Positions 13,312 through 58,335 of a DNA stretch of 64,000 nt are shown here, in pieces. Location: assembly GCA_003024785.1 (NCBI GenBank), contig PUQB01000088.1, forward strand, positions 1-64,000, read 5' to 3'. The DNA is from Selaginella tamariscina. Its lineage: Eukaryota > Streptophyta > Lycopodiopsida > Selaginellales > Selaginellaceae. Positions within the stretch are counted from its first letter, which is position 1; every line of letters begins with the position of its first letter. The position numbers and the translations under genes are program-made. The notes beneath the pieces were generated by a model, which was not told the origin of the DNA, searched no databases, and worked only from the letters and a program-made list of their open reading frames with translations.

Positions 13312-13312
13312 A

Positions 13313-32533: not shown

Positions 32534-32692
32534 TGTGAGAGCTCGGAATATAGAAATGTGTATATCCATTAGTTCAGAAACCCTAACTTATATACAAGAG
32601 CGTGGTCCAGATTGAATCCAATCCGACGGCTATCAAAATCCACTACGCTAATAATAGTATGTGCACATGCAGCCGTACACGTGGATCTTACA
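32534..32692 (-). repeat. 3' LTR, gypsy copy 2
   Basis: 159 bp, TG...CA. It is followed inside by the polypurine tract at 32693-32709 (minus strand GAGAGGAGGGGATGA). It equals the other LTR except for a missing AG in 'gagcgagtgg'. Confidence 0.9.
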
Positions 32693-32724
32693 TCATCCCC
32701 TCCTCTCGGAAGGGTGTAAGTTGG

Positions 32725-36060: not shown

Positions 36061-36202
36061 TTGAAAAGTGAAAACCGGATGATTTGGTGCCGAGTGAACC
36101 CTTGATGATACTCTTGAAAGAAAGACGGAGGGGTCACTAATTTATTCGCACGAGGACCTCCTCTACTCATGCGATTCGTCGTTTCCCGGAAGATCCACTG
36201 CA

Positions 36203-37199: not shown

Positions 37200-37237
37200 T
37201 CTGTAGGGACAATTAGAGGTGCCCCTCGCCTCACCAA

Positions 37238-37398
37238 TGTGAGAGCTCGGAATATAGAAATGTGTATATCCATTAGTTCAGAAACCCTAACTTATATACA
37301 AGAGCGAGTGGTCCAGATTGAATCCAATCCGACGGCTATCAAAATCCACTACGCTAATAATAGTATGTGCACATGCAGCCGTACACGTGGATCTTACA
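37238..37398 (-). repeat. 5' LTR, gypsy copy 2
   Basis: 161 bp, TG...CA. On the minus strand the first bases after it are TTGGTGAGGCGAGG, a one-base-deleted version of the alanine-type PBS. Confidence 0.9.
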
Positions 37399-37779
37399 TT
37401 ATGTATAATTTAAAATATGTTCATAGTGTGTATATATATTATTTTCTAATTATTCGATGTTTGTTTTGCACATATTATATATAAACACAATCATAAAATT
37501 ATATATACATGTGCACACGCATTAGAAGCACTTCAGAGACACATATGCATACACATGCACATTGCCCTAAACCAAACTTGAGAAATTATATGTTGCTTCT
37601 TTATTGAAAACATCATGTTCAACGCATGTATGATCTATATGTACAGTGTGTGTGTATGTAACACATTGAATTTACACATGTAATATATATGTATGTCTGT
37701 GGTATACACGTGTGTATGTATATATGTGACTAATATATAATATATGCAATGTGTATGATTTTCATTGTTAACACTCTAT

Positions 37780-38285
37780 CTCTTCTCTCATACATACATA
37801 GTGTCACATGCATAATCCCTTCTCTCATACATATATACACACCATGCATGATCATGATCCATAATATGTAGCATGCTCTTCTCTCATACATACACACCAT
37901 GCATGATCCATAATATGTACTGATGTTACAATATTATGTAATATGTATAATGTATATCTGTGTATAACACTCACCCTCTCATACATAAACACCATGCATG
38001 ATCCATCCTAACCCTAAACCCTAAACCCTACATTGAATTTACACATGTAATAGTATGTATGCTGTGTGTATGTATATTGTGTGTACTAATATATCCAATG
38101 TGTATGAATTTAATTTGTTAACACTCTCACTCTTCTCTCATACATACACACCATGCATGATCCATGTAAATATGTACTGTCTCTTTTTTCTCAAACATAC
38201 ACACCATGCATGATCCATAATATGTATTGTCACTCTTCTCTCATACATACACACATACATGATCCTGTACTCTGTCTCTCTAATA
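37780..38285. repeat. Interspersed minisatellite, unit A
   Basis: A block containing TTCTCTCATACATACACACC followed by ATGCATGATCCATAATATGT recurs about six times with variable spacing, and the same series is present at 50550-51065. A short CCCTAAA telomere-like run lies at 38007-38030. Confidence 0.75.
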
Positions 38286-38459
38286 TTAATATATATTAAT
38301 ATGTTGTATGTCTATTGTATAATACTATGTGTGTATATATGTATCGCTGCATGTGAAACTTTAACACTCTCATTAACGTGTTAAACCTTGCATGATATTT
38401 ATTCTTGAGGTGTATGTGATACACCCACGCACACGCACACGCTGATAATATAATGAAAG

Positions 38460-38633
38460 AATATTCGTTTAGGGCGAATCTATAGTTTATTCTTTTTAGG
38501 GTTTAAGTATATTCTTAAAAGGAATATTCGATTAGGGTTAATATATATTCTATTTCTTTTAGGGTTTTGGTATATTCCTAGGGTTTGTAAGGCGGCGGCG
38601 GCGGCGGTGAAATCTCCTCTCTCTCTCACACAG
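38460..38633 (+). promoter_or_regulatory. Putative promoter and GGC-rich 5' leader exon, unit A
   Basis: Three 'tagggttt' words (telo-box-like, common in promoters of plant growth genes) precede a (GGC)6 run at 38591-38608 and a CT-rich leader ending CACACAG before GTGAGA at 38634. The same arrangement occurs at 51265-51434. I infer transcription to the right into a leader intron; no TATA box is obvious. Confidence 0.45.
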
Positions 38634-38794
38634 GTGAGATCTCTCTCTCTCTCACATGCACACTCCTCTGCGTTTATTTGTGATATTTATTTATTTTTAT
38701 TCACATATATATTTATATGTGTGTGTATCTTAATAATATAATTTAGATCTCTATCTCTCGCACACACACGCACACTCGTATACATATATAACAC

Positions 38795-39045
38795 AGATAT
38801 TATGTATATATATATATATATAATATATTATATATATATATATATATATATCTTCTCTTTCTCCTTCTCTATAGATCTCTATCTCTTGCACACACACGCA
38901 ACTCGTATACATATACAACACAGATATATATATATATATATATATATCTCCTTCTCTCTCTCTCTTCTCTATAGATCTCTATCTCTCGCACACACGCACA
39001 CTCGTATACATATACATACACAGATATATATATACATATAACACA

Positions 39046-39090
<45 letters not shown>

Positions 39091-39495
39091 TATTTATTAT
39101 TTATATATATGTGTGTGTGTGTATCTGTATAATTTTATTGATTTGTTAATTGTATCTCTCGCACACACACGCACACTCCTGTATATATATGTGTGTGTGT
39201 GTGTTTGTTTATCTGTATGATTTTATTTGTTTCACACACGCATACACACGATATACATATACACATATATATATATATATACCTATGTATACATACATAA
39301 TATTATGTGTACCAGTATCTGTATAATTTATTTATTTATCTATCTCTCGCACACAGACGCGTATATACATATACATATACATATATATGTGTGTGTGTGT
39401 ATCTGTATAATTTTATCTGATTTGACTACTCTGGCACACACACACACTCTCCTACACACACATATACATATATATATCTGTGTGTGTGTGTGTGT
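38795..39495. repeat. TA/CA/CT microsatellites
   Basis: Alternating (TA)n, (CA)n and (CTCT)n tracts, with the module 'tctctatctctcgcacacac' repeated about six times. Related modules lie at 51540-52110. Every ORF across it encodes Tyr/Ile/His/Thr low-complexity sequence and is not real. Confidence 0.8.
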
Positions 39496-39496
39496 G

Positions 39497-40115
39497 TAGC
39501 GGCGGGATTAATCCCGCCGCTATATAATTAGCCACTCAGCGGCGGGATTAATCCCGCCGCCTACGCATGCCCTGCGCGGAATCGGGCGGGATTAATCCCG
39601 CCGCCATTGGCCTGCCTGAAGGGCAGGCGCGGGATTAATCCCGCCACTGGCCTTCCTGGGCCTAGGCGGCGGGATTAATCCCGCCGCCGCACGGCATTGG
39701 CCGCGGGATTAATCCCGCCGCTAGGCCGAGTGAAGGGCCTGGGCGGCGGGATTAATCCCGCCGCGTACATGCCCTGCGCGGAATCGGGCGGGATTTATCC
39801 CGCCGCCATTGGCCTGCCTGAAGGGCCTAGGCGGCGGGATTAATCCCGCCGATTCCGCAGGGCATTGGCGTCCAGCGGGATTAATCCCGCCGCCTAGGGC
39901 CGAAGTGAAGGGCCGGGCGGCGGGATTAATCCCGCTGCCCTGCGCGGAATCGGGCGGGATTAATCCCGCCGCCAAAGGCCTGCCTAAGGGCCTAGGCGGC
40001 GGGATTAATCCCGCCCGATTTCGAGCAGGGAATTGGCGTCCGGCGGGATTAATCCCGCCGCATAGGGACCGAGTGAAGGCCCTGGGCGGCGGGATTAATC
40101 CCGCCGAGCCTTCAA
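39497..40115. repeat. Palindrome array A: about 15 copies of an 18-bp perfect palindrome
   Basis: GGCGGGATTAATCCCGCC recurs about every 35-48 bp. Some copies extend further, for example a 26-bp perfect palindrome at 39497-39522. Spacers are not unique: they alternate among a few types ('ggcctgcctgaagggcc', 'gccctgcgcggaatc', 'gcattggcgtcc', 'gagtgaaggg'), giving a higher-order period of about 170-215 bp. Five or six decayed copies (GGCGAGATTAATCCCGCC type) follow at 40125-40470. Being palindromic, the array reads alike on both strands and encodes GGINPA or AGLIPP on each. Confidence 0.95.
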
Positions 40116-40124
40116 TGCCTGTTG

Positions 40125-40475
40125 GAGGAATGAATCCCGCCACCCTTCCTTTTTTCTCCATTGGTGAGTCGGACCAATCCCAAACGTTTCTGTCTGAGAC
40201 GTAGAAGGTTTACAACATACCAATGGAGAGAAGGGAAGGGTGGGGAAATTCATTTAACCATCCCTTACATGGTGGGCGAGATTAATCCCGCCTCCTTTCT
40301 GGAGTCACTGAAGGGGTGTGCCAAAATAAATCCTGCCCAGTTCTCTCTGAGACCGAGAAGGGTGGCAAGATTAATTCCGCACTCCCGTTCAAGGCCTCCA
40401 GAAAGGTGGCGAGATTAATCCCGCCCACTCTTTCAGGAGGCATTGAAGGGGTGGCGAGATTAATCCCGCCGCACC
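40125..40475. repeat. Degenerate tail of palindrome array A
   Basis: Variant units (about 40272, 40365, 40406 and 40450) have GGCGAGATTAATCCCGCC or weaker forms, separated by 'cattgaaggggt' or 'ctccagaaagg' spacers. Substitutions concentrate in the left arm. Confidence 0.8.
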
Positions 40476-40584
40476 TTCCATGTGAATATATATGTGTATT
40501 AGTATATATAAGTTGCATATCTCATTTTATTTACTTTTATCATCTTATCATAATATTTCGAGTAAAAGCTAGGAATCTATGTAA

Positions 40585-40670
40585 AACTGTCCAGAGCTCA
40601 CATTTGTGGTGGTTCTAAAACGAAATGTTATCTTTCTTTTGCACTAGCACAAAGTGAGCTTTGGACAGTT
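40585..40670 (+). other. 86-nt hairpin in the leader intron, unit A
   Basis: 40585-40608 (AACTGTCCAGAGCTCAC...) pairs with 40648-40670 with one mismatch and one bulge over about 23 bp, leaving a 39-nt loop. The hairpin is conserved in unit B (53303-53387). It resembles a small-RNA precursor or foldback in size, but I cannot assign it. Confidence 0.5.
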
Positions 40671-40812
40671 AATTCCGTCTACTTCTCTCTGTGTATTATT
40701 TTTGTATATTCGGGTTTATACAAGTGTGTGTGCGTTTTTATATGATTTGTATTCATAGTGTATTATTTTGCAGAAGGACGATTTGATCAAACAAGGAGAT
40801 CGAGTCATTAGT

Positions 40813-43800
40813 ATGGAGTCGTCGTCAAATTCTGGGTAAGAATTAAAATAAAATCTGTTATACTCGGATATGTGCTTGAACTAATCATTTTTGTATTCAG
40901 ATGTGGAATTGAGGTGACATTAAAGACAGAGCAGGAGAAGAGATGGGCAGGGGGATTCTGGAATCAACTTGGCCATATTTCAAATAAACGGGAAGCGCAT
41001 TGGAACAACCATGGTTGCTGTCAAACTAACCTCTGTCACATCGCATGGACAAGCAAAACAATGGAAAGTGGGTGTGCTAGTCAAGCATCCGAAAGCATGC
41101 TTGAACCCAGATTGAACGATGCTCGACACATATGCCTTGTTCCATCCAATGTCACGTTCTCGGATCCAGAGGTCGCCAGTTACAACATTAATTTCGGGTG
41201 GTTTTGTCGACTTGTGGATAATGACGTTCACGTGTTCACTAATGATGTTGACCTTGGAGTTCTTCTTCAACTCAACGAAAGCCCATCTATGGAGGGGATC
41301 CATCTGGATGTCTACTTCGAAGATCTTCAGACTCATCGAGTAGGTGTATTGTCAGGAGATATTGCTTCACAATACAGAAAATCAGCAAGTGGAGCAATCG
41401 TCCCTCTTCACATTGAAGAAGAACACACGACATCATAAAGGAGATTGAGAGGGTGGCTTGGTCTCAGGTTCTTTACAGATCACGTTCAATTTGCTTAGAA
41501 ATTTCGGGAGCTGGAAGAGTGTGCCGAGAACACTTAGAACAGCATCAATCGGGGATCACACATGTTGATTCGGATCGTAGAAGAAAATCATTAGTTTTTG
41601 TCAGCTGCACCTGTGGCGTCCCATGCTGCAATAAGCCACAAGGAAATGATGTTGGATGATAGGATTTACCAGTGTAGGGTTAAGTATTGCAGCGTCAACC
41701 CAAACTTCAATTACAGGCCACTCAATCAGGAACGTGTAGCTGAGCTCATGGAGAAGATGAAGGACGACAATTCTTACACCGTTCCACATAATGCTGTTTT
41801 GTGCGCATACTACGAGAGACAAAAGGCGCTGACAAAGTGTGGATCACAACACCGGAACAAATGAGGAAGGTTCAGACGGAGAATAGAAAATCAGTTAAGT
41901 ACTACATCATTAGTGGCCAGCACACAATAACGGCAGCCCAACGACTTCTCGACGAACACAACAAAGGAACGATGGCAACAAAACTTTCCGAGCATACCCG
42001 TGAGAAGCTGACAAAAAGATCGGCGTTTTTAGCGAAGCCGAATCTCACAATCGAGCAGTACCATAAGTTATCGGCGGAATGGGACGCTGCAGACACCAAC
42101 CACTACAACAGCAAAATATGGGAGAAGTTCAAACACACGCGAGCCGTGTGGGAATCTCTTCAGCGACCACAAAGAGCTACCGCAGGGAATACACAATCTG
42201 CGGAATACCGGGTAAGCAAATTGTTTGGGCGGGATTTATCTCGCCGGTATATTAATCTGTCTTTTTCCTCAGAGAGTTGAAGAAATTGTAGCAGTTGATT
42301 TTGCCCAGGTGGGCGGGAAGGAAACATCCTTTTTGATGATGTTGATTTCTTGTCCCGAGGATAGGATCTTTGCGAAATGGTTGGGGATTATGGAATCCTT
42401 TGCAAAAGGAACACTGAAGAAGAAGCAGACAAGTGAAGTGGAGCCCTCAGAGAAGTCTGCAAAGAAACCCAGTAAGACGCCGAAGGCTAAGTCTGTTCAA
42501 TCTATAAAGGATGTAGACAACGATTTCAAGCTCACATGGTTGAAGCCTTTAAATGGAACAACGATGGAGGAGATGGAAGTCTTGGCTGATTTGGTGATTG
42601 ATGGCAAATTACAGATTAACAACAGCAGCCCCACCTCTCCTTTTCATCTCAAGGCAATGGAGTTGAAGACGGTCAGGCACTTCAAGGAGTGGTTGGGAAT
42701 ACACTGCCACAAACTGGGTTGGATTTCGGCTTCAACATACGAAGAGGTCAGCAAATATTTGCATGTGACAAATGATGATATGCTTGTCGAATGGGTGAAT
42801 CAATCGGAAGATCTGGGCAAGAATCTATTGCACGCCAACGCCAAAAAGGAGAACATTGCGATGACGCCTTCTCTTATGGCAGTCCTTCAGCAGCGGAGAA
42901 CCGAGTTGAACCTTATAAAGGAGGATGCTACGAATCACGACAAGCCCTACAGATGTTTGTTGTTGGATTCGGAGACTTTATGGGGTACCATCACTGCTTG
43001 TAGGAAACCGTTTCAATTGTTCGTGATGGATCGGCGGGTGTCAAAAAATCCTTCGACAGACAGGACACTAGAGGATTTGGTGGAGAAACTTAGCCGTGCA
43101 AGCATGTACAAAGAAGGTATTTATTATTGAATTCATACTTGCACTCTTGACTGATATCTACGTTTTCAGGTATTTATTTCTTGATTCTTGCTCATGTCAC
43201 CGATACCTTTGCCTTCTCCTTTGCCAAGAGAATAAACATCGTTGGACAGGATTTTATATGAATGATGCTGATCCGAAGTGCATTGATTCGGTTGTTCACT
43301 TGGTTGTTAGGAATGCGCCAAACAGTTTCAAACTTCCAAATGACTGGCCAGGCATCTGTTTGCACTCCAACGGCCCTGAACCTCCATCCGATACACCGAT
43401 AGGTGAGAGTGACGTATTCGGCAATGTACGTTATCCAAACATCAAGCAAGTCAACTTGATCAGGGGTCCTCACAGTGATGCGTGGGTTTTTGACTACTGC
43501 ACTAGGGGGTCCGTCTTGAAGGAGTGTTACCTTCGGCATACATGTGTATTTGCCGTTGAAAAGGATAAGACCATGGTTGAGGACCTGAACAAGTGGATAG
43601 ATAGGTTCTCAACTGACTACCCCAACGAATCCATAAAGGAGTATTTGAGAAAGTTCCCTCCAGATAAGTGCGATAGCTCTGAAGACGAATCTGGTTCAAT
43701 GTCGGAGTCTGAGGACGAACTTCAATCAGATATTAGACCGGAAGTTATCTCGAGGAGTACAGAACATTCGCACACTCCATTACCCATGGAAACATCAATA

Positions 43801-43899
43801 GAAGATGCAGAAGATCTTGAACCATCTCACAAGCGGCTTAGACCTTCTTCGCCTCACTCAGAAGGTAATAGCGAAGAAGAATTGTTAATGAATTGTTAG
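40813..43899 (+). CDS. ParB-like domain plus adenine-MTase-like protein, copy A (frameshifted)
   Basis: Start: ATG 40813 (MESSSNS), then an intron at 40836-40900. The N-terminal region includes FSDPEVASYNINFGWFCRL. A ParB/sulfiredoxin-like domain (about 41660-41965) reads YRPLNQERVAELMEKM and, after a slip near 41820, YYIISGQHTITAAQRLL, the nucleotide-binding GxHR-like turn of ParB. A 61-bp intron (42212-42272) joins AEYR to RVEEIVAVDFAQV. A Lys-rich linker follows, then a region shaped like a beta-class, circularly permuted N6-adenine methyltransferase: LFVMDRRV where DPPY is expected, an intron at 43117-43169, then GIYFLILAH (seen in copy B), VVHLVVRN, and a motif-I-like VFDYCTRGSVLKECYL with CVFAVEKDKTMVEDLNKW. 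An acidic Ser/Glu tail ends at 43899. The catalytic motifs look degenerate, so methylation is doubtful. Frame breaks near 41000, 41445, 41590, 41820 and 43230 are mostly intact in copy B. Confidence 0.6.
42212..42272 (+). other. 61-bp intron carrying a degenerate palindrome
   Basis: GT-AG intron, with the donor after TACCGG and the acceptor at TTCCTCAG. Removal keeps the frame. It contains GGGCGGGATTTATCTCGCC, a two-mismatch version of the array palindrome. It is the same length (61 bp) in unit B (54904-54964). Confidence 0.7.
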
Positions 43900-44100
43900 A
43901 GTGACGAATAGTTGTAAATGAGTGTAACATAAGGCATTTTTGTATATTTCGTTTATATTTGTACAGAAAATAAATTCTCAAGGATTAATGAAGCTTTTAG
44001 TTCAAACATGGGTCACACATTAACAAGGTAAATAATATACCTTGATAATTTTAAGGTCAGCTAATTATCATTTTGCAGATGTAATGAAACAATTGAGAAC
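43900..44100 (+). other. Short spacer between the two cassette genes
   Basis: About 200 bp of UTR-like DNA holding an intron-like stretch that ends TTTTGCAG at 44078, just before the second gene. The spacing is close enough for a shared transcript or a bicistronic remnant. Confidence 0.3.
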
Positions 44101-45137
44101 ATGGATTTTCAGCATTGGCATGAGGTAAGAGAGGGGTTTGGCGACAATTTCTTGTGCCACATGTCAGAATGACAGAGTTCATGGATAATAATGCAGCTCA
44201 AAACATCGTTACCATGGGGGCCACTTCAGTTTTTTCATCATCATTTTTATTGGCTTCAGTTCCGAAATCAATTTCTTCAGCGCATGCAATATCTGAATCT
44301 TGTAAGGATGATGTACAATTAAATGATGAAGGGATAGGCAACGAGATAGTGGCAACGGATAAATGTGAAAGGGAGCAAACAAGTGATTTGCAAAGTATTC
44401 AAGAGGCAACGCTATCTCATGTTACTCATGGCCATATTGTGTTGTTGGATGTCAATGGTGTTCTGCTTCATCGACAAAGGCCCGAGGATAGGAAAAAAGA
44501 AATCAAACAAGGAGATTTCATTCCTTGTCATGGTAAATTTCGATATGATATTATTTTTCGTCCAGGGTTGGATCGTCTCTTTCAAAAGCTTAAGGAGATG
44601 GGTGCGCTTGTGGGGATTTGGTCATGCATGCAGATTCATAACTTAACACCGCTGTTGAATTTGCTTAAGAAACATTGTAGTGTTGCAGAAGAGGTGATTC
44701 GTAAAGATTGGATTTTTGACCAGCGAATGTGTTATAAACCTCTCGAATTTCACAATATAAGAAAGGAAAGCAAGCCATACTTCTTCAAGAATGAAAGAAT
44801 AATTGGGACTCATGGGGAGATCAGTCGCTTAAGGATAATGAAGAATGCACATATCTTAGTAGTAGACGACTCTCCTCAGAAGGCTATGCTCAACCAAAAC
44901 ATTGCTTGTATTCATCCAATCACTTTCGATCCATATTCTGATACCGATATCATGGATGAGCTAGTGAACTACTTGGATACGTGCCTCAGAAAGAAGAATC
45001 TCGAAAATTTTTGTGAGCAGTATCCACCGTATCATACATTTCCTGAAGCTTTTCTTTCTCGTGATTTTGAATTTTATAAAATGAAGGATAGCAACCGGGC
45101 GCTTTATAATATTATTCTTAAGGAACGTCATTTTTAG
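44101..45137 (+). CDS. FCP1/NIF-like HAD phosphatase, copy A
   Basis: The likely start is ATG 44101 (MDFQHWHE), followed by a short intron; in unit B its acceptor is ATGCAG (56895), and copy A lacks 9 bp there. Downstream the frame is open to 45137. HIVLLDVNGVLLHRQRPED is the HAD motif I region; the second Asp of the usual DxDGT/V is Asn, as in many plant NIF-like paralogues. FRPGLDRLFQKLKEMGALVG and GIWSC (motif II Ser) follow, then ILVVDDSPQKAMLNQNIACI (motif III/IV Asp pair) and a DIMDELVNYLDTCL helix. FCP1/SCP enzymes dephosphorylate Ser residues of proteins such as the RNA polymerase II CTD. Whether the Asn variant is active is uncertain. It sits about 200 bp downstream of the ParB-like gene, same strand, in both units. 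Confidence 0.75.
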
Positions 45138-45187
45138 ATGAGCCTTTATGCAGACCTGGTCTTATTACATCTTATGTATTAACAAGG

Positions 45188-45352
45188 ATGGCAACTCCCA
45201 ATTGCATTCGTGAGAGTGTTAGGTGGTGGCAACAACATCAAGATATTGACCAAAATGATTTGATTAATCCGGAGAGTGATGATTTAGACAAAATGAGGAG
45301 ATTTCTCTGTATGGTTAGGAAGAAAGTATTTATAAATAAATTAACATGTTGA
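45188..45352 (+). CDS. Small conserved ORF (54 aa), copy A
   Basis: ATG 45188 to TGA 45352 encodes MATPNCIRESVRWWQQHQD...KLTC. The same frame, stop and length recur at 57900-58064 with only two amino-acid differences, while neighbouring genes carry many indels between the units. It may be a small gene, an uncounted terminal exon, or chance. No homology recognised. Confidence 0.3.
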   Translation: MATPNCIRESVRWWQQHQDIDQNDLINPESDDLDKMRRFLCMVRKKVFINKLTC

Positions 45353-45835
45353 TAAGGAAATGATTTCATTTGTAATTATGTTTGATAGTATTTCTTCATT
45401 ATTGTAAACTATTTTTAGAATAATATGAATATTCTAAGATAGTTTTAGGAATATTCCTTACTAAGTAAGGTTATTGAAGGATTAATTAATTAATTAATTA
45501 ATATTTAAGGCTTAATTACATATTAATTAAATGATTAATTAATAATTAAAACTTAAGTATTAATTAGTAATTTATTTTATATTCCCATTTTCACGTATCA
45601 TGCCCACTTTAGGTTACACGTGATTATAGCATTCATTGAACAAAATTAATAACTTTATAAAAGTAGAAGTATTAAATTATATAATAATTGCCTAATATAA
45701 CAATTAAGGAAGAGCATAAGAGGTACATTAATAAATATTGATGTTGTTATTAAAATATTAATATTTAAATATAACATTATTAATTAAAAATTTGTAGTAG
45801 TAATAATATATATACAAAAATCCTATAATAATATA
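45353..45835. other. AT-rich DNA and right end of duplication unit A
   Basis: (TTAA)n-type run 'ggattaattaattaattaat' near 45480 and AT-rich sequence. Homology to unit B ends near 45630. Nothing coding is seen. Confidence 0.6.
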
Positions 45836-45839
45836 GTCA

Positions 45840-48186
45840 ATCTTCCATATCATTTTTTAAATTTATATAGTTAAGTAAACAGTTTGGTACTATTATTAAA
45901 GAGTTTATAATAATTATGAATATTAAATATATAATATTTTTATAAAACATGCTGGGTCTTTTTGATTGGGAGACCATATTTTTCTCTAGGCATCCATTAT
46001 ATCTTTCGCTCTCCTTCTCATGTCGCCTTTTTTGTGGTTTGAACCATGCAACCTTAACAATACTATTTTTTGTGATTACTTCAGGTGTGTCGATAATTTG
46101 ACCCATCCAAATAGACTGATTATATGACGCATCTGGAGTAATGAGAACCATCATTAGTTTTTGAAGATCCTGGCAGCAATCAAAGTATGCTTTAGGTTTT
46201 GGTTCTTTTGTCCAACAAAGTGTGGGGTTTGCACTTCCACATCACTACTGGCTTCTATGTCGTCTATGCTCAGTGAATGTCATTTTAATCTCCTCTCGCC
46301 ACCTTGTTTTGGCCAAAAGGGTGTTGCAATTCTGTACTTGTGACAGTAGGCCTTCCAACTCTCGAACAACAGTCTCCATAGTCGACCACATGCTTATATA
46401 GTTCTGAGTAACCAGTTGCCTTATCAGAATTCTTTGGCATCGATTTTTAACCATGCCACATATTTTTTGATGCCATATATAATAACCTCTTGTTCTTGAG
46501 CTAGTGGTAGGACGTGTCTGTGAGTGGGCTTCAAGGTTTCTGAAACACATGGCCAACGACCCAATAGTGAAATTGGAGTCACTAGACCAATGTGGAAGTG
46601 AAAAGTTCTATATGATTCACAACCGTGTCCATGTGTTAGCACACCTGTCAATGAATCGGAAGTTTCATGACATTTCCAAGGCACTTTGGTGTTGCAACGA
46701 GCTTTGGAATGCTAGTCTTGAATAATCCATCTTGTCATGGATCAAGCACAGGTACTCTGATGGGCGTGACACAGAAAGCATGCGGTGTGCATAGTACTGA
46801 GACCGGCAAGTTTGTTGTGCAATCATGTGGGCCTCCATCTTCTTTTGAATGGCAGTGATCTCCACCAAGGTTTTTGCACAAGCCTCTGTAGCCTTCAATG
46901 ATGTACAAGTGTCACACTTGGAAAAGCTAGAGTGTTTTGCAATCTTCCACATCCTTAAAATGAGTATTCCATATGTTGTTGAAGGTACCAGTGCAGATTG
47001 CTTGCAGACCCATCAAATTGAGGCACTTGTTCACATGTTCACACAGCTTCAATTGAGTGTAGATTGAAGGCAAAACCTTGAGATTTTTCCCTGATCCTGC
47101 ATTTGTGGTTCGACATTTGTGAGGCATCCTGTCTGCATTTGCTTCCACAAAAGCCTTGAGTATCTCTATGGCTGCCATGATGTGAGAGCGGGTTTTGACC
47201 AAGCAAGTGTTCCCATGTACTGAGGTTCGCGCTCCATCTAGCCATTCATCCCTCCGACAGTAGAACGTGGTCTTTGGGATCCCGTATATACTGTACCAAG
47301 CTTTGAAGCAAATGGCCACCTTATTAAATACCATGGATGTACTCTGATAACCTGTGTCTGAGGTCATTCCATCAATACACCCAGTTAGTGCTGCATATAC
47401 AAACTCATGCCTTTGCTTTTGGGTGAGCGTACGAAAGACATGTCTACATTGGGTAATTTCATTCCGGTCTGCCATCTGACAACACTTCTTCTTGCAGTAA
47501 TCAATCGTGGAAATGCTCATAACACTTTTGGAAGATGTAGGATCCATCTTGACCTCTTGCTGAAACTTGTAGGGGAAGATCTACAACCCATGAATCGCCT
47601 TTTTCTTACAATAGGACCAATGCAAGGAACCTCTTCAAATATGAGTTGTTCTTCCGGGTTGGTTATTATTGAAATTCAACCCAGAATATGTTGAACCATC
47701 TTCCCGTCTTAATTCAGATGTTCGCCACCTCAAGAGGGATGCAGGATGCAAAGTGCCATTAGGTGAAACCTCTGTCACAACTACACCCACGAAGTCGGAC
47801 CCTAGTTTCTCTTCTGACACTGCTTCCATTGGATTTATAGCTGTGATGATGCCTCTCCCAACCTCAATCTCATGAAGAAAGAGAATCACCTCATCCATCA
47901 CAGCAGGCAAGCCATCATCTGAAAAACTCATGCTACTGTTTGTTTGTGACTCTGTATATTCTATGTCAGCCTTGACTTCATCCAAATTCCACAATACAGG
48001 AGAACCCTCCTCAAATTCCATTCCTAGAACATCAACATGCTTGAAAATGGTGTTCACCCATACGTACACACAAGATCCTTGGGCAATATTGTGACATGAT
48101 GCATTATCATCTCGAACTTCCACAGTTCTAGTGCCAACTATCTCGTTGTTCCGAAGAAGACATAATTTATCTCCAGTATTATACAT
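45840..48186 (-). pseudogene. Transposase-like gene (DUF7869-type appearance), broken
   Basis: Minus strand, first ATG at 48186 (MYNTGDKLCLLRNNEIVGT). The N-terminal domain includes GTRTVEVRDDNASCHNIAQG, resembling the small domain found in some plant transposon-encoded proteins. After a frame change near 47650 come HVFRTLTQKQRHEFVYAAL, CFKAWYSIYGIPKTTFY, RDEWLDGARTSVHGNT and NNIWNTHFKDV, then KHSSFSKCDTCTSLKAT with a helix and IHDKMDYSRLAFQ, then SLTGVLTHGHGCE. This block order is the pattern I associate with a widespread RNase H-fold transposase-like family. The expected catalytic 'DNC..QNKN' segment is not evident. The C-terminal frame 46154-45837 (TPDASYNQSIWMGQI) is separate. Many indels are present. 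It lies between the two cassette copies and has its own palindrome array upstream. Confidence 0.45.
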
Positions 48187-48192
48187 ATTGTC

Positions 48193-49354
48193 CTGCACAT
48201 AAATAATTGTGTTATTTATGATATTTGTTTATGCAATATTTCTAAGAAATCATAACTGCGATTGCTTAATAATATGCATGTGCAATAATACATAATTATG
48301 TATAAAGATAATATCTCATGCTTTATTAATACAACTGATGGGCGGATTAATCCCGCCCACGACTCCATCCGATGAGGAACGATGGGCGGAATTAATCCTG
48401 CCGATTCTTCCTTGCGGGAGGGAATTGTCGGCGGGATTAATCCCGCCGACGGTACTTCCTCGTATGAGAGAGGCGGCGGGATTAATCCCGCCGCGACTCC
48501 CTCCGATGAGGAAGTATCGGCGGGATTAATCCCGCCGCTTCTTCCTCGCGGGAGGGAATCGGCGGCGGGATTAATCCCGCCGACGGTACTTCCTCGTATG
48601 AAGAGGCGGCGGGATTAATCCGCCGCGGACTCCCTCCGACGAGGAAGTACTGGCGGGATTAATCCCGCCGCTTCTTCCTCACGGGAGGGAATCGGCGGTG
48701 GGATTAATCCCGCCGCAAATCCCTTCGACGAGGAAGAGGGGGCTGGATTAATCCCGTCCACAACACTGACGAGGAGAATAGGCGGCGGGATTAATCCCGC
48801 CCACAACTCTAACGACGGGGAATAAGCGGCGGGATTAATCCCGCCCACAATTCTTTCCGAAATTATGATTTTAAAGAAATTCGGATGAATCCTACTCACA
48901 AATATTTAAAACAGGAATGTGATGGTAAGATTAATCCCACCACACCTTCTCTGTCTCCTAAAATGAATGGCGAGATTAATCCCATAAATAACTCTTTTCA
49001 ATAAATTCAAGTATCTCTTTATCAATTGAGAGAGTTATCGACGGGATTAATCCCGCCACTCTTCTTAAGAGGCGGAGAAGCATTGCCCGGACTAATTTTG
49101 TCATAGTTATCAAAGAGATGGTGGCGGGATTAATCCCGCCACCTCTTTGAAGAGGCAAAAAAAAATGGCCGGATTAATCCCGCCGCCCCGGCTAACCGAG
49201 AATATTAAGTTAAAAGTATATTTAAAACAGAATAAATCCCTAACAGAATATATTGTAATCCTAATGCATTCCTAAATCTTTAAATTTTAAAATTTAAGAG
49301 AATGTAAGAGAGTGAATCTTTATAAATATATTTAAATTTGTTTATAATACTTAC
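48193..49354 (-). other. Putative leader intron of the transposase-like gene
   Basis: On the minus strand a GTAAGT donor begins at 49354 (after GTTTACAA) and a TTTATGTGCAG acceptor ends at 48193, seven bases before ATG 48186. The whole third palindrome array lies between them, mirroring the arrangement in the cassettes. Inferred from splice consensus only. Confidence 0.4.
48340..49190. repeat. Palindrome array C: about 17 units, different spacers
   Basis: The same core GGCGGGATTAATCCCGCC recurs about every 45 bp. The spacers here ('cttcttcctcgcgggaggga', 'actccctccgatgagg', 'acggtacttcctcg') differ from arrays A and B. Units right of 48740 decay (GTAAGATTAATCCCACC, GACGGGATTAATCCCGCC). Near 49115-49150 the dyad extends to roughly 36 bp through GAGATGGTGG/CCACCTCTTT. 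Only the palindrome core is shared with arrays A and B, so the core is the conserved unit. Confidence 0.95.
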
Positions 49355-49359
49355 TTGTA

Positions 49360-50160
49360 AACAGCACTAAGGCGCCGTGCTTTCCTATAAACAATAGCGC
49401 ACCCAATTTAATGTCGCTCCTGAGTTGATCACTAAGAAGAAAAAAGAAAATCTGAAAAGTGAAAAATAAAGAAATAAAGAAACCCTTGCCGAGAAAGAAC
49501 CAAATCTGAATTTGAGTGGGAAATTAAATGCATTTTCAAATTTACATGTCAGACCGACAATACTTATGTCAGAAATTCAAAATTTTTGAAATAACAGAAA
49601 AGAAAATTTAAGATGAGTTGAAACAAATAACCGACAGTTGACATATATACTCTCCAATTCCAATGAGTGTTTTAAAATTGCATTTAATGTCATTCAAGTG
49701 CTTCAAGCTGTTTAATATTACGAAATTTTTGTAATTATTCTACATTCTTAATATTCAAGTATATATTATTAAGTTTATATTATATATATATATACACTAA
49801 TACAATAAATAAATTGATATATTATTATGTATCATTTAAAATATATTCATAGTCTGTTTATTATTATTATTTTCTTAATTACTCGAGTAATTAATTTACA
49901 TTTCCTACTATTAATGGGATATTCTTTGTTATTTTCTTAATATTCAAAGAATATTTCAATATTAAAAATGATTATCATAATTAAATTAGTCTTATTCTTA
50001 ATTATCTCAGTAATTATTCTACATTTGTATATATTAATGGGATTTTCTCAATTAATTTGTTATTATTTCAAGAATATTCTAGTGTTAAACCTTATTATCA
50101 ATATTAAATTAATATATATTATTAAACTATACATGGCTATATATTAGATAAAATCATATA
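49360..50160. other. AT-rich DNA before duplication unit B
   Basis: No gene seen. Near 49830-49880, 'catttaaaatatattcatag' anticipates the start of unit B (50168, 'aatttaaaatatgttcatag'), suggesting a short local duplication at the boundary. Confidence 0.45.
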
Positions 50161-50544
50161 TTATTATGTATAATTTAAAATATGTTCATAGTGGTTATAT
50201 TAATATTATTTTCTTAATTATTCGATGTTTGTTTGCACATATTATATATAAACACAATCATAAATTTATATATACATGTGCACACGCATTAGAAGCACTT
50301 ACAGAAACACATATGCACACACATGCACATTACCCTAAACCAAACTTGAGAAATTATATGTTACTTCTTTATTGAAAAACATCATGTTCAACGCATGTAT
50401 GATCTATATGTACTCAGTGTGTGTGTATGTAACACATTGAATTTACACATGTAATATATATGTATGTATGTATGTATACACGTGTGTATGTATATATGTG
50501 TACTAATATAATATATGCAATGTGTACGATTTTCATTTGTTAAC

Positions 50545-51070
50545 ACTCTATCTCTTCTCTCATACATACATAGTGTCACCATGCATAATCCCTTCTCTCA
50601 TACATACACACCATGCATGATCATGATCCATAATATGTAGCATGTCTCTTCTCTATACATACACACCATGCATGATCCATAATATGTACTGATGTTACAA
50701 TATTATGTAATATGTATAATGTATATTTGTGTATAACACTCACTCCTCTCATACATAACACCATGCATGATCCATCCTAACCCTAAACCCTAAATCCTAA
50801 ACCCTATGTAACACATTGAATTTACACATGTAATATGTATGTATGTCTATGTGTATACACGTGTGTATGTATATGTGTGTACTAATATATCCAATGTGTA
50901 TGAATTTAATTTGTTAACACTCTCATTCTTCTCTCATACATACACACCATGCATGATCCATGTAAATATGTACTGTCTCTCTTCTCTCAAACATACACAC
51001 CATGCATGATCCATAATATGTATTGTCACTCTTCTCTCATACATACACACCATACATGATCTTGTACTCT
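50545..51070. repeat. Interspersed minisatellite, unit B
   Basis: Second copy of the CATACATACACACCATGCAT series seen at 37780-38285, with a CCCTAAA run near 50779-50808. Confidence 0.7.
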
Positions 51071-51264
51071 GTCTCTCTAATATTAATATGTACTAATATG
51101 TATGTATGTTTATGTATATAATACTATGCGTGTATATATGTATCGCTGCACATGAAACTTTAACACTCTCATGGACACACACGTGTTAAACCTCTGCATG
51201 ATATTTTTCTTGGGTGTATGTGATACACCCACGCACACGCACACGCTGATATATAATGAAAGAA

Positions 51265-51434
51265 TATTCGTTTAGGGCGAATCACTAGTTTAATCTTTTT
51301 AGGGTTTAAGTATATTCTTAGAAGGAATATTCGATTAGGATTAATATATATTCTATTCCTTTTAGGGTTTAAGTATATTCTTAGGGTTTGTAAGGCGGCG
51401 GCGGCGGCGAAATCTCCTTCTCTTTCTCACACAG
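51265..51434 (+). promoter_or_regulatory. Putative promoter and GGC-rich leader exon, unit B
   Basis: Counterpart of 38460-38633: 'tttagggttt' words, a (GGC)n run near 51394-51408, a CT-rich leader and a CACACAG/GTGAGA donor at 51435. The matching leader intron acceptor is TTTTGCAG ending 53488. Confidence 0.45.
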
Positions 51435-52123
51435 GTGAGATCTCTCTCTCTCTCTCACACGCACACTCCTCTGAGTTTATTTATTTATTTATATATTTAT
51501 ATGTGTGTGTATCTTAATAATATAATTTAGATCTCTATCTCTCACACACACGCACACTCGTATACATACACACACCACACACACACACACATATATATAT
51601 ATACACACACACACAGATATATATATATATATATATATATATATCCTTCTCTCTCTTTCTTCTCTATAGATCTCTATCTCTCGCACACACATGCACACTC
51701 CTGTATATATATGTGTGTGTGTGTGTGTTTGTTTATCTGTATGATTTTATTTGTTTCACACACGCATACACACGATATACATATACACACATATATATAT
51801 ATACCTATGTACATATATACATACATATATTATGTGTACCAGTATCTGTATAATTTTATTTATTTATCTATTTCTCGCACACACACGCACACTCCTATAT
51901 ATATATACACACACACACATATATATATATAATTTTATTGATTTGTTTGTTTATTTATGATTTTATTTGTTTCACCACATACACACGATATACATATAAT
52001 TTGTGTATTGGTAAATTTGTGTATAATTTGTGTATTAGTATAATTTTATCTGATTTGTCTATCTCTAGCACACACACACACTCTCCTACACACATATACA
52101 TATATAAATATATATGTGCGTAG

Positions 52124-52860
52124 CGGCGGGATTAATCCCGTCGCTATATGGTGAGACGTGTGTAGCAGCGGATTAATCCCGCCGCTATATGGTTAGCCCC
52201 TCGACGGTGAGATTAATCCGCCGCTATATGGTTAGACCCTCGGCGGCGCGGGATTAATCCCGCCGCCCTTCAAGCAGGCTATTCCGTTAGCCTCATGAGC
52301 AGCGGGATTAATCCCGCCACGTACGCATGCCCTGCGCGAATAGGGCGGGATTTATCTCGCTGCCAAAGGCCTGCCTGAAGGGCCTAGGCGGCGGATTAAT
52401 CCCGCTCGATTTCGCGCAGGCATTGGCGTTCGGCGGGATTAATCCCGCCGCCTAGGGCCCGAGTAAAGGGCCTGGCAGCGGGATTAATCCCGCTGCCCTG
52501 CACAAAATCGGGCGGGATTAATCCCGCCGCCAAAGGCCTGCCTGAAGGGCCTAGGCGGCGGGATTAATCCCGCCCGATTCCGCACAAGGCATTGGCGTCC
52601 AGTGGGATTAATCCTGCTGCCTAGGGCCCGAGTGAAGGCCTAGGCGGCGGATTAATCCCGCTGCCTTGCGCGGAATCGGGCGGGATTAATCCCGCCACCA
52701 AAGGCCTGCTTGAAGGGCCTAGGCGACGGGATTAATCCACCCAATTTCGTGCAGGGATTGGCGTCCGGCATTAATCCCGCCGCATAGGGACCGAGTGAAG
52801 GCCCTAGGCGGCGGATTAATCCCCGCCAAGCCTTCAATGCCTATTGGAGGAATGAATCCC
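52124..52860. repeat. Palindrome array B: about 17 units
   Basis: Copy of array A with the same spacer families (CTGCCTGAAGGGCCTAGG, GCGCGGAATCGGG, GCATTGGCGTCC). Several units have lost one G or C (GGCGGATTAATCCCGC), and a degenerate tail follows at 52990-53195. Unit number and order do not match array A exactly, so units have been gained or lost since duplication. Confidence 0.95.
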
Positions 52861-53302
52861 GCCACCCTTCTTTTATCTTCATTAGTGAGTCGGACCAATC
52901 CCAAATGTTTCTGTCTGAGACGTAGAAGGTTTACAACATACCAATGGAGAGAACCGGGAAGGGTGGCGAAATTCATTTAACCATCCCTTACATGGTAGGT
53001 GAGATTAATCCCGCCTCTTTTCTGGAGTCACTGAAGGGGTGTGCCAAATAAATCCTGCCAAGTTCTCTCTGAGACCGAGAAGGGTGGCAAGATTAAATCC
53101 GCACTCCCGTTCAAGGCCTCCAGAAAGGTGGCGAGATTAATCCCGCCCACTCTTTCAGGAGGCATTGAAGGGGTGGCAAGATTAATCCCGCCGCACCTTC
53201 CATGTGAATATATATGTGTATTATATATATAGTGCATATCTCATTTTATTTACTTTTATCATCTTATCATAATATTTCGAGTAAAAGTTAGGAAAGATGT
53301 AA

Positions 53303-53387
53303 AACTGTCCAGAGCTCACATTTGTGGTGGTTTAAAACGAAATGTTATCTTTCTTTGCACTAGCACAAAGGTGAGCTTTGGATAGTT
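53303..53387 (+). other. Conserved hairpin in leader intron, unit B
   Basis: Counterpart of 40585-40670. Arms of 24 nt pair with about three mismatches. Confidence 0.5.
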
Positions 53388-53526
53388 AATTCCGTCCACT
53401 TCTCTTTGTATTATTTTTGTATATTCGGGTTTATACAAGTGTGTGTGCGTTTTTATATGATTTGTATTCATAGTGTATTATTTTGCAGAAGGACGATTTA
53501 ATTAAACAAGGAGATCAGTCATTAGT

Positions 53527-56500
53527 ATGGAGTCGTCGTCAAATTCTGGTAAGAATTAAAATAAAATCTGTTATACTCGGATATGTGCTTGACTAATCAT
53601 TTTTGTATTTAGATGTGGAATTGAGGTGACATTAAAGACGAGAGCAGGAGAAGAGATGGGCAGGGGGATTCTGAATCAACTTGGCCATATTTCAAATAAA
53701 CGGGAAGCGCATTGGAACAACCATGGTTGCTGTCAAACTAACCTCTGTCACATCGCATGGACAAGCAAAACAATGGAAAGTGGGTGTGCTAGTCAAGCAT
53801 CCGAAAGCATGCTGTGAACCCAGATTGAACGATGCTCGACACATATGCCTTGTTCCATCCAATGTCACGTTCTCGGATCCAGAGGTCGCCAGTTACAACA
53901 TTAATTTCGGGTGGTTTTGTCGACTTGTGGATAATGACGTTCACGTGTTCACTAATGATGTTGACCGTGGAGTTCTTCTTCAACTCAACGAAAGCCCATC
54001 TATGGAGGGGATCCAACTGGATGTCTACTTCGAAGATCTTCAGACTCATCGAGTAGGTGTATTCTCAGGAGATATTGCTTCACAATACAGAAAATCCAAA
54101 TGGAGCAATCGTCCCTCTTCACATTGAAGAAGAACACAGCGACATCATAAAGGAGATTGAGAGGGTGGCTTGGTCTCAGGTTCTTTACAGATCACGTTCA
54201 ATTTGCTTAGCAAATTTCGGGAGCTGGAAGAGTGTGCCGAGAACATTAGAACAGCATCAATCGGGGATCACACATGTTGATTCGGATCGTAGAAGAAAAT
54301 CATTAGTCGTTTTGTCAGCTGCACCTGTGGCGTCCCATGCTGCAATAAGCCACAAGGAAATGATGTTGGATGATAGGATTTACGAGTGTAGGGTTAAGTA
54401 TTGCAGCGTCAACCCAAACTTCAATTACAGGCCACTCAATCAGGAACGTGTAGCTGAGCTCATGGAGAAGATGAAGGACGACAATTCTTACACCGTTCCA
54501 CATAATGCTGTTTTGTGCGCATACTACGAGAGAAACAAAGGCGCTGACAAAGTGTGGATCACAACACCGGAACAAATGAGGAAGGTTCAGACGGAAATAG
54601 AAAATCAGTTAAGTACTTCATTAGTGGCCAGCACACATAACGGCAGCCCAACGACTTCTCGACAAACACAACAAAGGAACGATGGCAACAAAACTTTCCG
54701 AGCATACCCGTGAGAAGCTGACGAAAAGATCGGCGTTTTTAGCGAAGCCGAATCTCACAATCGAGCAGTACCATAAGTTATCGGCGGAATGGGACGCTGC
54801 AGACACCAACCACTACAACAGCAAAATATGGGAGAAGTTCAAACACACGCGAGCCGTGCAGCGACACAGAGCTACCAGGAATACACAATCTGCGGACTAC
54901 CGGGTAAGCAAATTGTTTGGGCGGGATTTATCTCGCCGGTATATTAATCTGTCTTTTTTCTCAGAGAGTTGAAGAAATTGTAGCAGTTGATTTTGCCCAG
55001 GTGGGCGGGAAGGAAACATCCTTTTTGATGATGTTGATTTCTTGTCCCGAGGATAGGATCTTTGCGAAATGGTTGGGGATTATGGAATCCTTTGCAAAAG
55101 GAACACTGAAGAAGAAGCAGACAAGTGAAGTGGAGCCCTCAGAGAAGTCTGCAAAGAAACCCAGTAAGACGCCGAAGGCTAAGTCTGTTCAATCTATAAA
55201 GGATGTAGACAACGATTTCAAGCTCACATGGTTGAAGCCTTTAAATGGAACAACGATGGAGGAGATGGAAGTCTTGGCTGATTTGGTGATTGATGGCAAA
55301 TTACAGATTAACAACACAGCCCCACCTCTCCTTTTCATCTCAAGGCAATGGAGTTGAAGACGGTCAGGCACTTCAAGGAGTGGTTGGGAATACACTGCCA
55401 CAAACTGGGTTGGATTTCGGCTTCAACATACGAAGAGGTCAGCAAATATTTGCATGTGACAAATGATGATATGCTTGTCGAATGGGTGAATCAATCGAAG
55501 ATCTGGGCAAGAATCTATTGCACGCCAACGCCAAAAAGGAGAACATTGCGATGACGCCTTCTCTTATGGCAGTCCTTCAGCAGCGGAGAACCGAGTTGAA
55601 CCTTATAAAGGAGGATGCTACGAATCACGACAAGCCCTACAGATGTTTGTTGTTGGATTCGGAGACTTTATGGGGTACCATCACTGCTTGTAGGAAACCG
55701 TTTCAATTGTTCGTGATGGATCGGCGGGTGTCAAAAAATCCTTCGACAGACAGGACACTAGAGGATTTGGTGGAGAAACTTAGCCGTGCAAGTATGTACA
55801 AAGAAGGTATTTATTATTGAATTCATACTTGCACTCTTGACTGATATCTACGTTTTAGGTATTTATTTCTTGATTCTTGCTCATGTCACCGATACCTTTG
55901 CCTTCTCCTTTGCCAAGAGGAATAAACATCGTTGGACAGGATTTTATATGAATGATGCTGATCCGAAGTGCATTGATTCGGTTGTTCACTTGGTTGTTAG
56001 GAATGCGCCAAACAGTTTCAAACTTCCAAATGACTGGCCAGGCATCTGTTTGCACTCCAACGGCCCTGAACCTCCATCCGATACACCGATAGCTGAGAGT
56101 GACGTATTCGGCAATGTACGTTATCCAAACATCACAAGTCAAGCGGCACGGAGCATCGTCAACTTGATCAGGGGTCCTCACAGTGATGCGTGGGTTTTTG
56201 ACTACTGCACTAGGGGGTCCGTCTTGAAGGAGTGTTACCTTCGGCATACATGTGTATTTGCCGTTGAAAAGGATAAGACCATGGTTGAGGACCTGAACAA
56301 GTGGATAGATAGGTTCTCAACTGACTACCCCAACGAATCCATAAAGGAGTATTTGAGAAAGTTCCCTCCATAAGTAAGTGCGATAGCTCTGAAGACGAAT
56401 CTGGTTCAATGTCGGAGTCTGAGGACGAACTTCAATCAGATATTAGACCGGAAGTTATCTCGAGGAGTACAGAACATTGCACACTCCATTACCCATGGAA

Positions 56501-56608
56501 ACATCAATAGAAGATGAAGAAGATCTTGAACCATCTCACAAGCGGCTTAGACCTTCTTCGCCTCACTCAGAAGGTAATAGCGAAGAAGAATTGTTAATGA
56601 GTTCTTAG
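53527..56608 (+). CDS. ParB-like domain plus adenine-MTase-like protein, copy B (frameshifted)
   Basis: Same gene model as 40813-43899: ATG 53527, introns 53549-53612, 54904-54964 and about 55808-55857. Here the frame is clean through FGSWKSVPRTLEQHQ, KEMMLDDRIYECRVKY and VNPNFNYRPLNQERVAELM up to YYERNKGADKVWITT, places where copy A is broken. It breaks just before IISGQHT (a 3-bp and a 1-bp loss near 54615-54640). Across intron 3 it keeps MYKEG joined to IYFLILAHVTDTFAFSFAKR. It also has an 18-bp stretch (NITSQAARSIVNLIRG) that copy A lacks. It hits a TAA at 56371 before the acidic tail, which continues out of frame to about 56606. Combined evidence from the two copies supports one ancestral ORF. 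Confidence 0.6.
54904..54964 (+). other. 61-bp intron with degenerate palindrome, unit B
   Basis: Same length and embedded GGGCGGGATTTATCTCGCC as 42212-42272; conserved between units apart from one base in the polypyrimidine tract. Confidence 0.7.
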
Positions 56609-56809
56609 AGTGACGAATAGTTGTAAATGAGTGTAACATAAGGCATTTTTGTATATTTCGTTTATATTTGTACAGAAAATAAATTCTCAAGGATTAATGA
56701 AGCTTTTAGTTCAAACATGGGTCACACATTAACAAGGTAAATAATATACCTTGATAATTTTAAGGTCAGCTAATTATCATTTTGCAGATGTAATGAAACA
56801 ATTGAGAAC

Positions 56810-57845
56810 ATGGATTTTCAGCATTGGCATGAGGTAAGAGAGGGGTTTGGCGACAATTTCTTGTGCCACATGTCAGAATGACAGAGTTCATGCAGGAAAT
56901 GGATAATAATGCAGCTCAAAACATCGTTACCATGGGGGCCACTTCAGTTTTTTCATCATCATTTTTATTGGCTTCAGTTCCGAAATCAATTTCTTCAGCG
57001 CATGCAATATCTGAATCTTGTAAGGATGATGTACAATTAAATGATGAAGGGATAGGCAACGAGATAGTGGCAACGGATAAATGTGAAAGGGAGCAAACAA
57101 GTGATTTGCAAAGTATTCAAGAGGCAACGCTATCCCATGTTACTCATGGCCATATTGTGTTGTTGGATGTCAATGGTGTTCTGCTTCATCGACAAAGGCC
57201 CGAGGATAGGAAAAAAGAAATCAAACAAGGAGATTTCATTCCTTGTCATGGTAAATTTCGATATGATATTATTTTTCGTCCAGGGTTGGATCGTCTCTTT
57301 CAAAAGCTTAAGGAGATGGGTGCGCTTGTGGGGATTTGGTCATGCATGCAGATTCATAACTTAACACCGCTGTTGAATTTGCTTAAGAAACATTGTAGTG
57401 TTGCAGAAGAGGTGATTCGTAAAGATTGGATTTTTGACCAGCGAATATGTTATAAACCTCTCGAATTTCACAATATAAGAAAGGAAAGCAAGCCACTTCT
57501 TCAAGAATGAAAGAATAATTGGGACTCATGGGGAGATCAGTCGCTTAAGGATAATGAAGAACGCACAGATGTTAGTGGTAGACGACTCTCCTCAGAAGGC
57601 TATGCTCAACCAAAACATTGCTTGTATTCATCCAATCACTTTCGATCCATATTCTGATACGATATCATGGATGAGCTAGTGAATACTTGGATACGTGCCT
57701 CAGAAAGAAGAATCTCGAAAATTTTGTGAGCAGTATCCACCGTATCAAACATTTCCTGAAGCTTTTCTTTCTCGTGATTTTGAATTTTATAAAATGAAGG
57801 ATAGCAACCGGGGCTTTATAATATTATTCTTAAGGAACGTCATTT
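56810..57845 (+). CDS. FCP1/NIF-like HAD phosphatase, copy B (frameshifted 3' end)
   Basis: ATG 56810 (MDFQHWHE), GT-AG intron 56834-56895 (62 bp), then EMDNNAAQNIV. The frame is open through LLDVNGVLLHR and GIWSC to KDWIFDQRICYKPLEF. A 2-bp loss near 57495 and later single-base losses (about 57660, 57685, 57723, 57812) break the region holding LVVDDSPQKAML. The 5' splice structure is better here than in copy A, while the 3' half is better in copy A. Confidence 0.65.
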
Positions 57846-57899
57846 TTAGATGAGCCTTTATGCAGACCTGGTCTTATTACATCTTATGTATTAACAAGG

Positions 57900-58064
57900 A
57901 TGGCAACTCCCAATTGCATTCGTGAGAGTGTTAGGTGGTGGCAACAACATCAAGATATTGACCAAAATGATTTGATTAATCCGGAGAGTGATGATTTAGA
58001 CAAAATGAAGAGATTTCTCTGTATGGTTAGGAAGAAAGTATTTATAAAAAAATTAACATGTTGA
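57900..58064 (+). CDS. Small conserved ORF (54 aa), copy B
   Basis: Second copy of 45188-45352, same start, stop and length; Arg-to-Lys and Asn-to-Lys are the only changes. Function unknown. Confidence 0.3.
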   Translation: MATPNCIRESVRWWQQHQDIDQNDLINPESDDLDKMKRFLCMVRKKVFIKKLTC

Positions 58065-58335
58065 TAAGAAATGATTTCATTTGTAATTATGTTTGATAGT
58101 ATTTCTTATTATTGTAAACTATTTTTAGAATAATATGAATATTCTAAGATATTTTAGGAATATTCCTTACTAAGTAAGGTTATTGAAGGATTAATTAATT
58201 AATTAATTAATATTTAAGGCTTAATTACATATTAATTAAATGATTAATTAATAATTAAAACTTAAGTATTAATTAGTAATTTATTTTATATTCCCATTTT
58301 CACGTATCATGCCCACTTTAGTTACAACGTGCATA

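Follow-up and report, generated by a model that had tools for sequence, protein, structure and literature searches.

According to the accessible part of its description, Sola1-1_Ec32 of Ectocarpus is a 21.5-kb Sola1 transposon that encodes a 1104-aa protein with a ParB-like and an N4C/N6A DNA methyltransferase part. The gene lies on the strand opposite to the transposase, and its product is a predicted methylase (PMC12477816). ParB-methyltransferase proteins have been proposed as a class of accessory proteins of algal transposons, with the role of binding and marking the element that encodes them. Accessory genes of other kinds appear in the available passages of a second paper, which describe DNA transposons in fungi that carry TET/JBP genes and plant VANDAL (MuDR) transposons whose products include a regulator of the silencing that acts on them (PMC12730594). 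In the accessible text of the open-licence literature on ParB or transposons in plants, on Selaginella, on EnSpm or on DUF7869, we found no report of the plant family described here.

We analyzed a stretch of 64,000 nucleotides from Selaginella tamariscina (contig PUQB01000088.1, positions 1 to 64,000; the window), in which an earlier note had described a plant gene joining a ParB-like to a methyltransferase-like domain. The gene, here called gene A, is real, and its matches across the genome together with the element ends shared among loci place it in a transposon instead. We consider it very probable that gene A belongs to a DNA transposon as an accessory gene and is not an ordinary plant gene (Table 1). 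Exon 3 gave 130 scored matches, the best of 5782 first-look candidates in the 300.7-Mb genome of 1391 contigs; 18 of them show 99-100% identity and 112 show 96%. Since only the best candidates were scored, this count is a lower bound on the copies, favors intact ones and may include repeated contigs of the assembly. With 130 matching places among these best candidates, a single-copy host gene was rejected.

Table 1. Coordinates of the transposon copies, their genes and the palindrome sites in the window.
Feature	Position	Strand	Remarks
Transposon copy 1	37400..45622	+	left part cut by abutting Gypsy LTR retrotransposon at 37400; from self-comparison
Palindrome array, copy 1	39501..40470	.	18 sites (<=2 mismatches)
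Gene A, copy 1	40813-43899	+	four exons; ATG at 40813, stop ends at 43899
Gene A exon 1	40813..40835	+	MESSSNSG
Gene A exon 2	40901..42211	+	carries ParB-like motif
ParB-like region	41655..41956	+	DDRIYQCRVKY ... YYIISGQHTITAAQRLLDE; broken by frameshift in copy 1
Palindrome-like site, gene A intron 2, copy 1	42228..42245	.	
Gene A exon 3	42273..43116	+	
Gene A exon 4	43170..43899	+	claimed motif-I-like stretch VFDYCTRGSVLKECYLRHTCVFAVEKD; methyltransferase homology without support
Gene B, copy 1	44169..45137	+	NIF/FCP1-like phosphatase domain (PF03031, E=4.6e-12); open
Transposon copy 2	45623..58335	+	left end short of about its first 169 bp; middle of gene C missing
Gene C of copy 2	46245..48228	-	DUF7869-type putative transposase; frame breaks
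Palindrome array, copy 2	48340..49184	.	14 sites; adjoins gene C
Palindrome array, copy 2	52125..53192	.	11 sites; upstream of gene A
Gene A, copy 2	~53527-56609	+	97.4% identity to copy 1
Palindrome-like site, gene A intron 2, copy 2	54920..54937	.	
Gene B, copy 2	56875..57850	+	ends approximate; frame breaks
Right TIR of copy 2	58308..58335	.	CATGCCCACTTTAGTTACAACGTGCATA

The element is a high-copy TIR DNA transposon of about 15 kb. Two elements with both ends, at loci C1 and C113, measure 14,800 and 14,957 bp. The right boundary beside gene A is common to 8 of 10 fetched loci (C1, C113, C147, C538, C529, C91, C125 and C435) and recurs in both window copies, at 45622 and 58335; the gene copy of C280 breaks off about 180 bp before this boundary, which the C180 contig does not reach. 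The left end was found in four loci, in the orientation of gene A in C1 and C113 and in reverse orientation in C538 and C280; C538 was rejected as a full element because of this reversal. The ends lie in unrelated flanking DNA and are inverted repeats of each other, with 17 of 18 bases matching in the BLAST core and, by eye in C113, 25 of 27 bp. Candidate target site duplications of 3-5 bp occur in the two loci with both ends, the exact duplication being ambiguous. From left to right, the element consists of gene C (minus strand), a palindrome array, a spacer, a second array, gene A, gene B and the right end, with genes A and B on the strand opposite to gene C.

The window holds two copies of this element, head to tail. 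A 31-bp match at 45623-45652 suggests that about 169 bp are absent from the left end of copy 2; the stretch 45653-46495 had no long reported alignment to the C1 element. At the junction itself (45622/45623), the last few bases of one end are missing along with the approximately 169 bp of the other. Reverse-oriented left ends of further element copies lie near the gene copies of C538 (L200/L215) and C280 (L211/L212), and elements thus tend to adjoin or nest in one another. The left edge of copy 1 is abutted by a Ty3/Gypsy-like element (32534-37400), which is about 93-94% identical to a second copy of the same element at 9014-13476. Another Gypsy-like element occupies 18033-22214; it matches gag (PF03732, E=4.8e-10) and, weakly, aspartyl protease (E=0.0019), and by eye it has ORFs resembling reverse transcriptase and integrase. 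A class 3 lipase gene (PF01764, E=4e-19 and 3e-10) lies on the minus strand at 14962-16199; by eye, it seems to contain a short intron and to change frame. Rfam and tRNA scans gave 0 matches.

Translations of gene C match DUF7869 (PF25273) at E=1e-26 and 1.2e-13, well above the cut-off, and contain LLLQMDNCAGENKN and FLMVGHTHEDIDAFF; C113 has two long open runs. We take this gene to be the putative transposase. A weak match to PF03017 (E=0.057 and 0.045) was replaced by the DUF7869 match. Gene C in the window had also been considered part of copy 1, which was rejected since the locus comparison puts it at the left of copy 2; there it is without the DNCAGENKN-GHTHEDID block that is present in the C1 and C113 copies. 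A homologue search with gene B returned nothing informative.

The exons of gene A are separated by introns of 65, 61 and 53 bp (40836-40900, 42212-42272 and 43117-43169) that fit GT-AG, and an AATAAA follows the stop at 43969. Given these short, GT-AG-consistent introns and the AATAAA, a single transcript would be the simplest reading. The longest open run in the gene A region is 304 aa, a length reached by 0 of 500 shuffles (shuffle maximum 206). All peptides quoted in the earlier note are present in copy 1, though in different frames as assembled: YRPLNQERVAELMEKM is readable at 41712-41759, YYIISGQHTITAAQRLL at 41900-41950, LFVMDRRV at 43017-43040, IYFLILAH right after the acceptor at 43169 and VFDYCTRGSV...CVFAVEKD at 43486-43566. 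The single-base breaks responsible differ between the two window copies, and neither copy therefore encodes the whole protein as written.

These breaks would also fit a different reading, in which the window copies are dead relics and gene A has no function. We compared 18 aligned rows from 16 distinct copies (L190 and L191 duplicate the C280 and C435 copies, and the truncated C180 copy was left out). For all rows together, the majority sequence can be read in a single open frame along exon 2, and exons 3 and 4 are open as well. When subfamily A (9 copies) and subfamily B (7 copies) are considered separately, the majority of each keeps one or two single-base breaks in exon 2, as relics would. 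Relative to the overall majority, however, the 18 rows contain 230 deleted vs 10 inserted bases (some gaps being multi-base), and because of this excess the breaks look more like long-read assembly error than decay. Further, none of the 130 best-scoring exon 3 places contains a stop, and dN/dS between the two subfamily majorities is 0.21 (65 synonymous and 54 non-synonymous changes, Fisher p=3e-16) over 884 codons in four pieces chosen to avoid frame breaks. From this ratio and from the majority of the 16 distinct copies, which is open in all exons, we conclude that gene A is a real protein-coding gene under purifying selection. Plain decay was rejected on the same grounds, and we regard a functionless gene A as improbable. 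The window copies themselves do speak for it: among 14 differences examined between them, ten alter the encoded protein, two leave it unchanged and two are ambiguous. With ten of 14 altering the protein, no constraint is visible between these two copies since their split.

Divergence between the window copies, measured in 400-bp windows, drops from 3-34% on the left side of gene A to 0-2.1% between the gene A start (about 40800) and 45600, and is alike in coding and non-coding sequence over that stretch. This pattern suggests a recent conversion or exchange tract.

We compared the ParB-like half of gene A with a profile of 32 phage ParB domains. The best place in the 976-aa read-through protein was residues 344-377, around YYIISGQHT, which is the proposed motif. 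The hhalign score was reached by 1 of 400 shuffles, by 3 of 400 ORF segments (drawn from loci of phages and viruses that were selected as lacking both motifs), by 4 of 150 full-length shuffles and, when both subfamilies served as query, by 0 of 400 controls; the reversed protein scored 12.8 vs 22.1 for the real one. In PHROGs, the only match of the subfamily A region was phrog_1033, 'ParB-like partition protein', at the expected place (E=0.079), while the subfamily B region matched only phrog_21535, which has no assigned function and is not a ParB family (E=0.052). The claim of one duplicated gene with a ParB-like motif has weak support: the motif outscores nearly all controls, but Pfam ParB_N (PF02195) gave no match to gene A at E<=10. 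At the same threshold, ParB_N had 0 matches in the whole genome. The sole Pfam match of the ParB-like region was PH_BUD3_C, whose E=0.016 falls short of the cut-off yet is better than the value for the ParB PHROG, and searches of NCBIfam and PDB sequences with gene A gave no ParB match. Additionally, the GxxR arginine is absent, with GQHT in both subfamilies; in ParB-fold proteins, an R-to-A change in GxxR abolishes NTP binding, according to the accessible portion of one study (PMC12704722). Overall, we judge a ParB-like fold to be somewhat more probable than not.

The methyltransferase domain fared worse. Its motif order can be traced by eye, and every profile test was at chance; by the refuting condition of the earlier note, the lack of a profile match, this half fails. 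Gene A has no match to Pfam N6_N4_Mtase (PF01555) at E<=10, and its methyltransferase half found nothing relevant in Pfam, PHROGs, NCBIfam or a phage tblastn, the only match being phrog_6044, of no assigned function (E=0.031). A profile of 123 phage methyltransferases placed best at residues 836-881, the stretch earlier called motif I, with a score that was reached by 41 of 400 shuffles, 52 of 238 ORF segments (again from phage and viral loci chosen without both motifs), 17 of 150 full-length shuffles and 51 of 400 two-row shuffles. The N-terminal half of the profile scored below the null mean, with 276 of 300 shuffles reaching the score. It placed best at a site that is not part of the proposed domain, and the protein scored higher when reversed (23.3) than as it stands (13.1). 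For the C-terminal half, 53 of 300 shuffles reached the score, and the reversed protein scored 17.5 vs 17.7 for the real protein. The structure prediction proposed as a check yielded pLDDT values of 36.3 and 40.8 (AlphaFold on two in-frame pieces, each as a single sequence without alignment), too low to inform on either fold. With profile tests at chance and low pLDDT, the methyltransferase reading rests on the motif order seen by eye, and we hold a methyltransferase-like fold to be possible, while leaning against it.

An active N6A/N4C methylase with unusual motifs, methylating its own transposon, is very improbable. Such an enzyme would agree with the prediction made for the Ectocarpus protein, as far as the accessible part of that report goes (PMC12477816), and with a motif-I-like stretch that is identical between subfamilies A and B. 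However, DRRV and YCTRG stand in both subfamilies at the places proposed for DPPY and FxGxG, and the homology itself is unproven. Should gene A indeed descend from a ParB-methyltransferase, the loss of GxxR, DPPY and FxGxG from both subfamilies would point to a reader or scaffold rather than a methylase. The earlier suggestion of a DNA-reading and not DNA-modifying protein agrees with these lost residues, and holds only if the homology is real.

Gene A could also be a transposon DNA-binding protein unrelated to ParB or methyltransferases, its motif likeness being due to chance. We treat this as a serious possibility, though not the leading one. TNPA and VANC are proteins of other plant transposons with a comparable working mode. 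The lack of any relevant Pfam, NCBIfam, PDB-sequence or phage tblastn match would be expected of such a protein, as would methyltransferase scores at chance and ParB profile matches that span 15-34 aligned columns. Homologue searches add little: residues 250-900 of the composite gene A protein gave nothing at E<=1e-3 in a protein collection, scans of viral and prokaryote contigs with gene A and with a Nostoc phage ParB gave no informative match, and phage tblastn with the ParB half gave two chance matches (E 7 and 9) and none with the methyltransferase half. Against an unrelated protein, the ParB profile falls best on the proposed motif with a score above nearly all controls, and a protein of this architecture and strand layout is encoded by an algal transposon, according to the accessible description (PMC12477816). 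This precedent raises the prior for a ParB-methyltransferase architecture, while the methyltransferase half is unsupported in gene A itself. The ParB-methyltransferase reading stays alive because gene A shares setting, size and proposed domain order with the Ectocarpus Sola1 protein, as described in that part of the source (PMC12477816).

The element also carries arrays of an 18-bp palindrome, GGCGGGATTAATCCCGCC. The window contains 45 sites with up to two mismatches, where 0.00 are expected, and all 45 fall within 37400-58335. Likewise, all 37 sites at C1 and all 35 at C113 lie inside the full elements, and the remainder of the 28 kb retrieved per locus has none; at C538, all 42 sites fall within the part that can be aligned to the element. 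Sites in C1 are spaced at a median of 45 bp (gaps under 100 bp). The arrays are a candidate target of the gene A product, a pairing to which we give slightly less than even weight; the one palindrome-like site in a gene A intron was counted against it. This intron 2 site is present in all five copies looked at, i.e., the two window copies, C1, C113 and C538.

We propose that gene A probably encodes a degenerate relative of the algal transposon ParB-methyltransferase proteins, with weak support for the ParB half and an unproven methyltransferase half. Its product may bind the palindrome arrays between the two divergent genes, the likeliest role if the homology is real. Lacking the residues for NTP binding and methyl transfer, it would then serve the element that encodes it as a DNA-bound regulator or an anti-silencing factor, and not as a methylase. 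Taken as a whole, the reading of gene A as a selected accessory gene of a 15-kb TIR element, degenerate in its ParB-methyltransferase ancestry and working as a palindrome-binding regulator, appears to us evenly balanced. A more specific version is unlikely: a catalytically dead ParB-methyltransferase turned into a sequence-specific, parS-like palindrome reader, which would protect or control the divergent transposase promoter and thereby aid the spread to well over a hundred similar copies.

Several known systems can be set beside this proposal. Fusions of ParB_N and N6_N4_Mtase in phages and bacteria, such as a protein of Streptococcus phage phiGBSVK-A (L002:700-1953), have the same proposed domain order, and the best place of the methyltransferase profile in gene A is the motif-I-like stretch. 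The phiGBSVK-A protein, however, retains GHQR, DPPY and GSGST, and the methyltransferase half of gene A has no significant similarity to it. The same Selaginella genome contains another multicopy family (L216-L223) that matches the C-terminal part of the methyltransferase profile. At least 150 members are over the cut-off among the best 150 of 739 candidates, and in three translations the C-terminal part matches PF01555 by hmmscan (E about 1e-10) and retains DIGSGTGS. Between this family and gene A there is no detectable similarity, the scores being reached by 146 of 2000, 4369 of 5000 and 357 of 2000 shuffles. A DNA methylase relative carried by a plant repeat would merit separate study.

The TET/JBP and VANDAL transposons resemble the present element in encoding an accessory gene possibly aimed at host epigenetic control, in the passages available to us; the protein families are other than that of gene A, whose function is putative (PMC12730594). 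The comparison with Sola1-1_Ec32, drawn from the accessible part of its description, is closest. That element belongs to an alga and has a Sola1 transposase, whereas the element described here belongs to a land plant, has DUF7869 and adds palindrome arrays and a NIF gene. Gene A gives no methyltransferase profile match and is without the active-site motifs, and the two are likened by description and not by sequence. Both are large DNA transposons with an accessory gene opposite to the transposase, if gene C is taken as such, and the proteins have 1104 aa against 976 aa in gene A and, if the homology holds, a ParB-like followed by a methyltransferase-like part. A high-copy land-plant version with candidate site arrays and without catalytic residues would make the bind-and-mark idea put forward for algae directly testable and, if true, would split the binding role from the methylating role.
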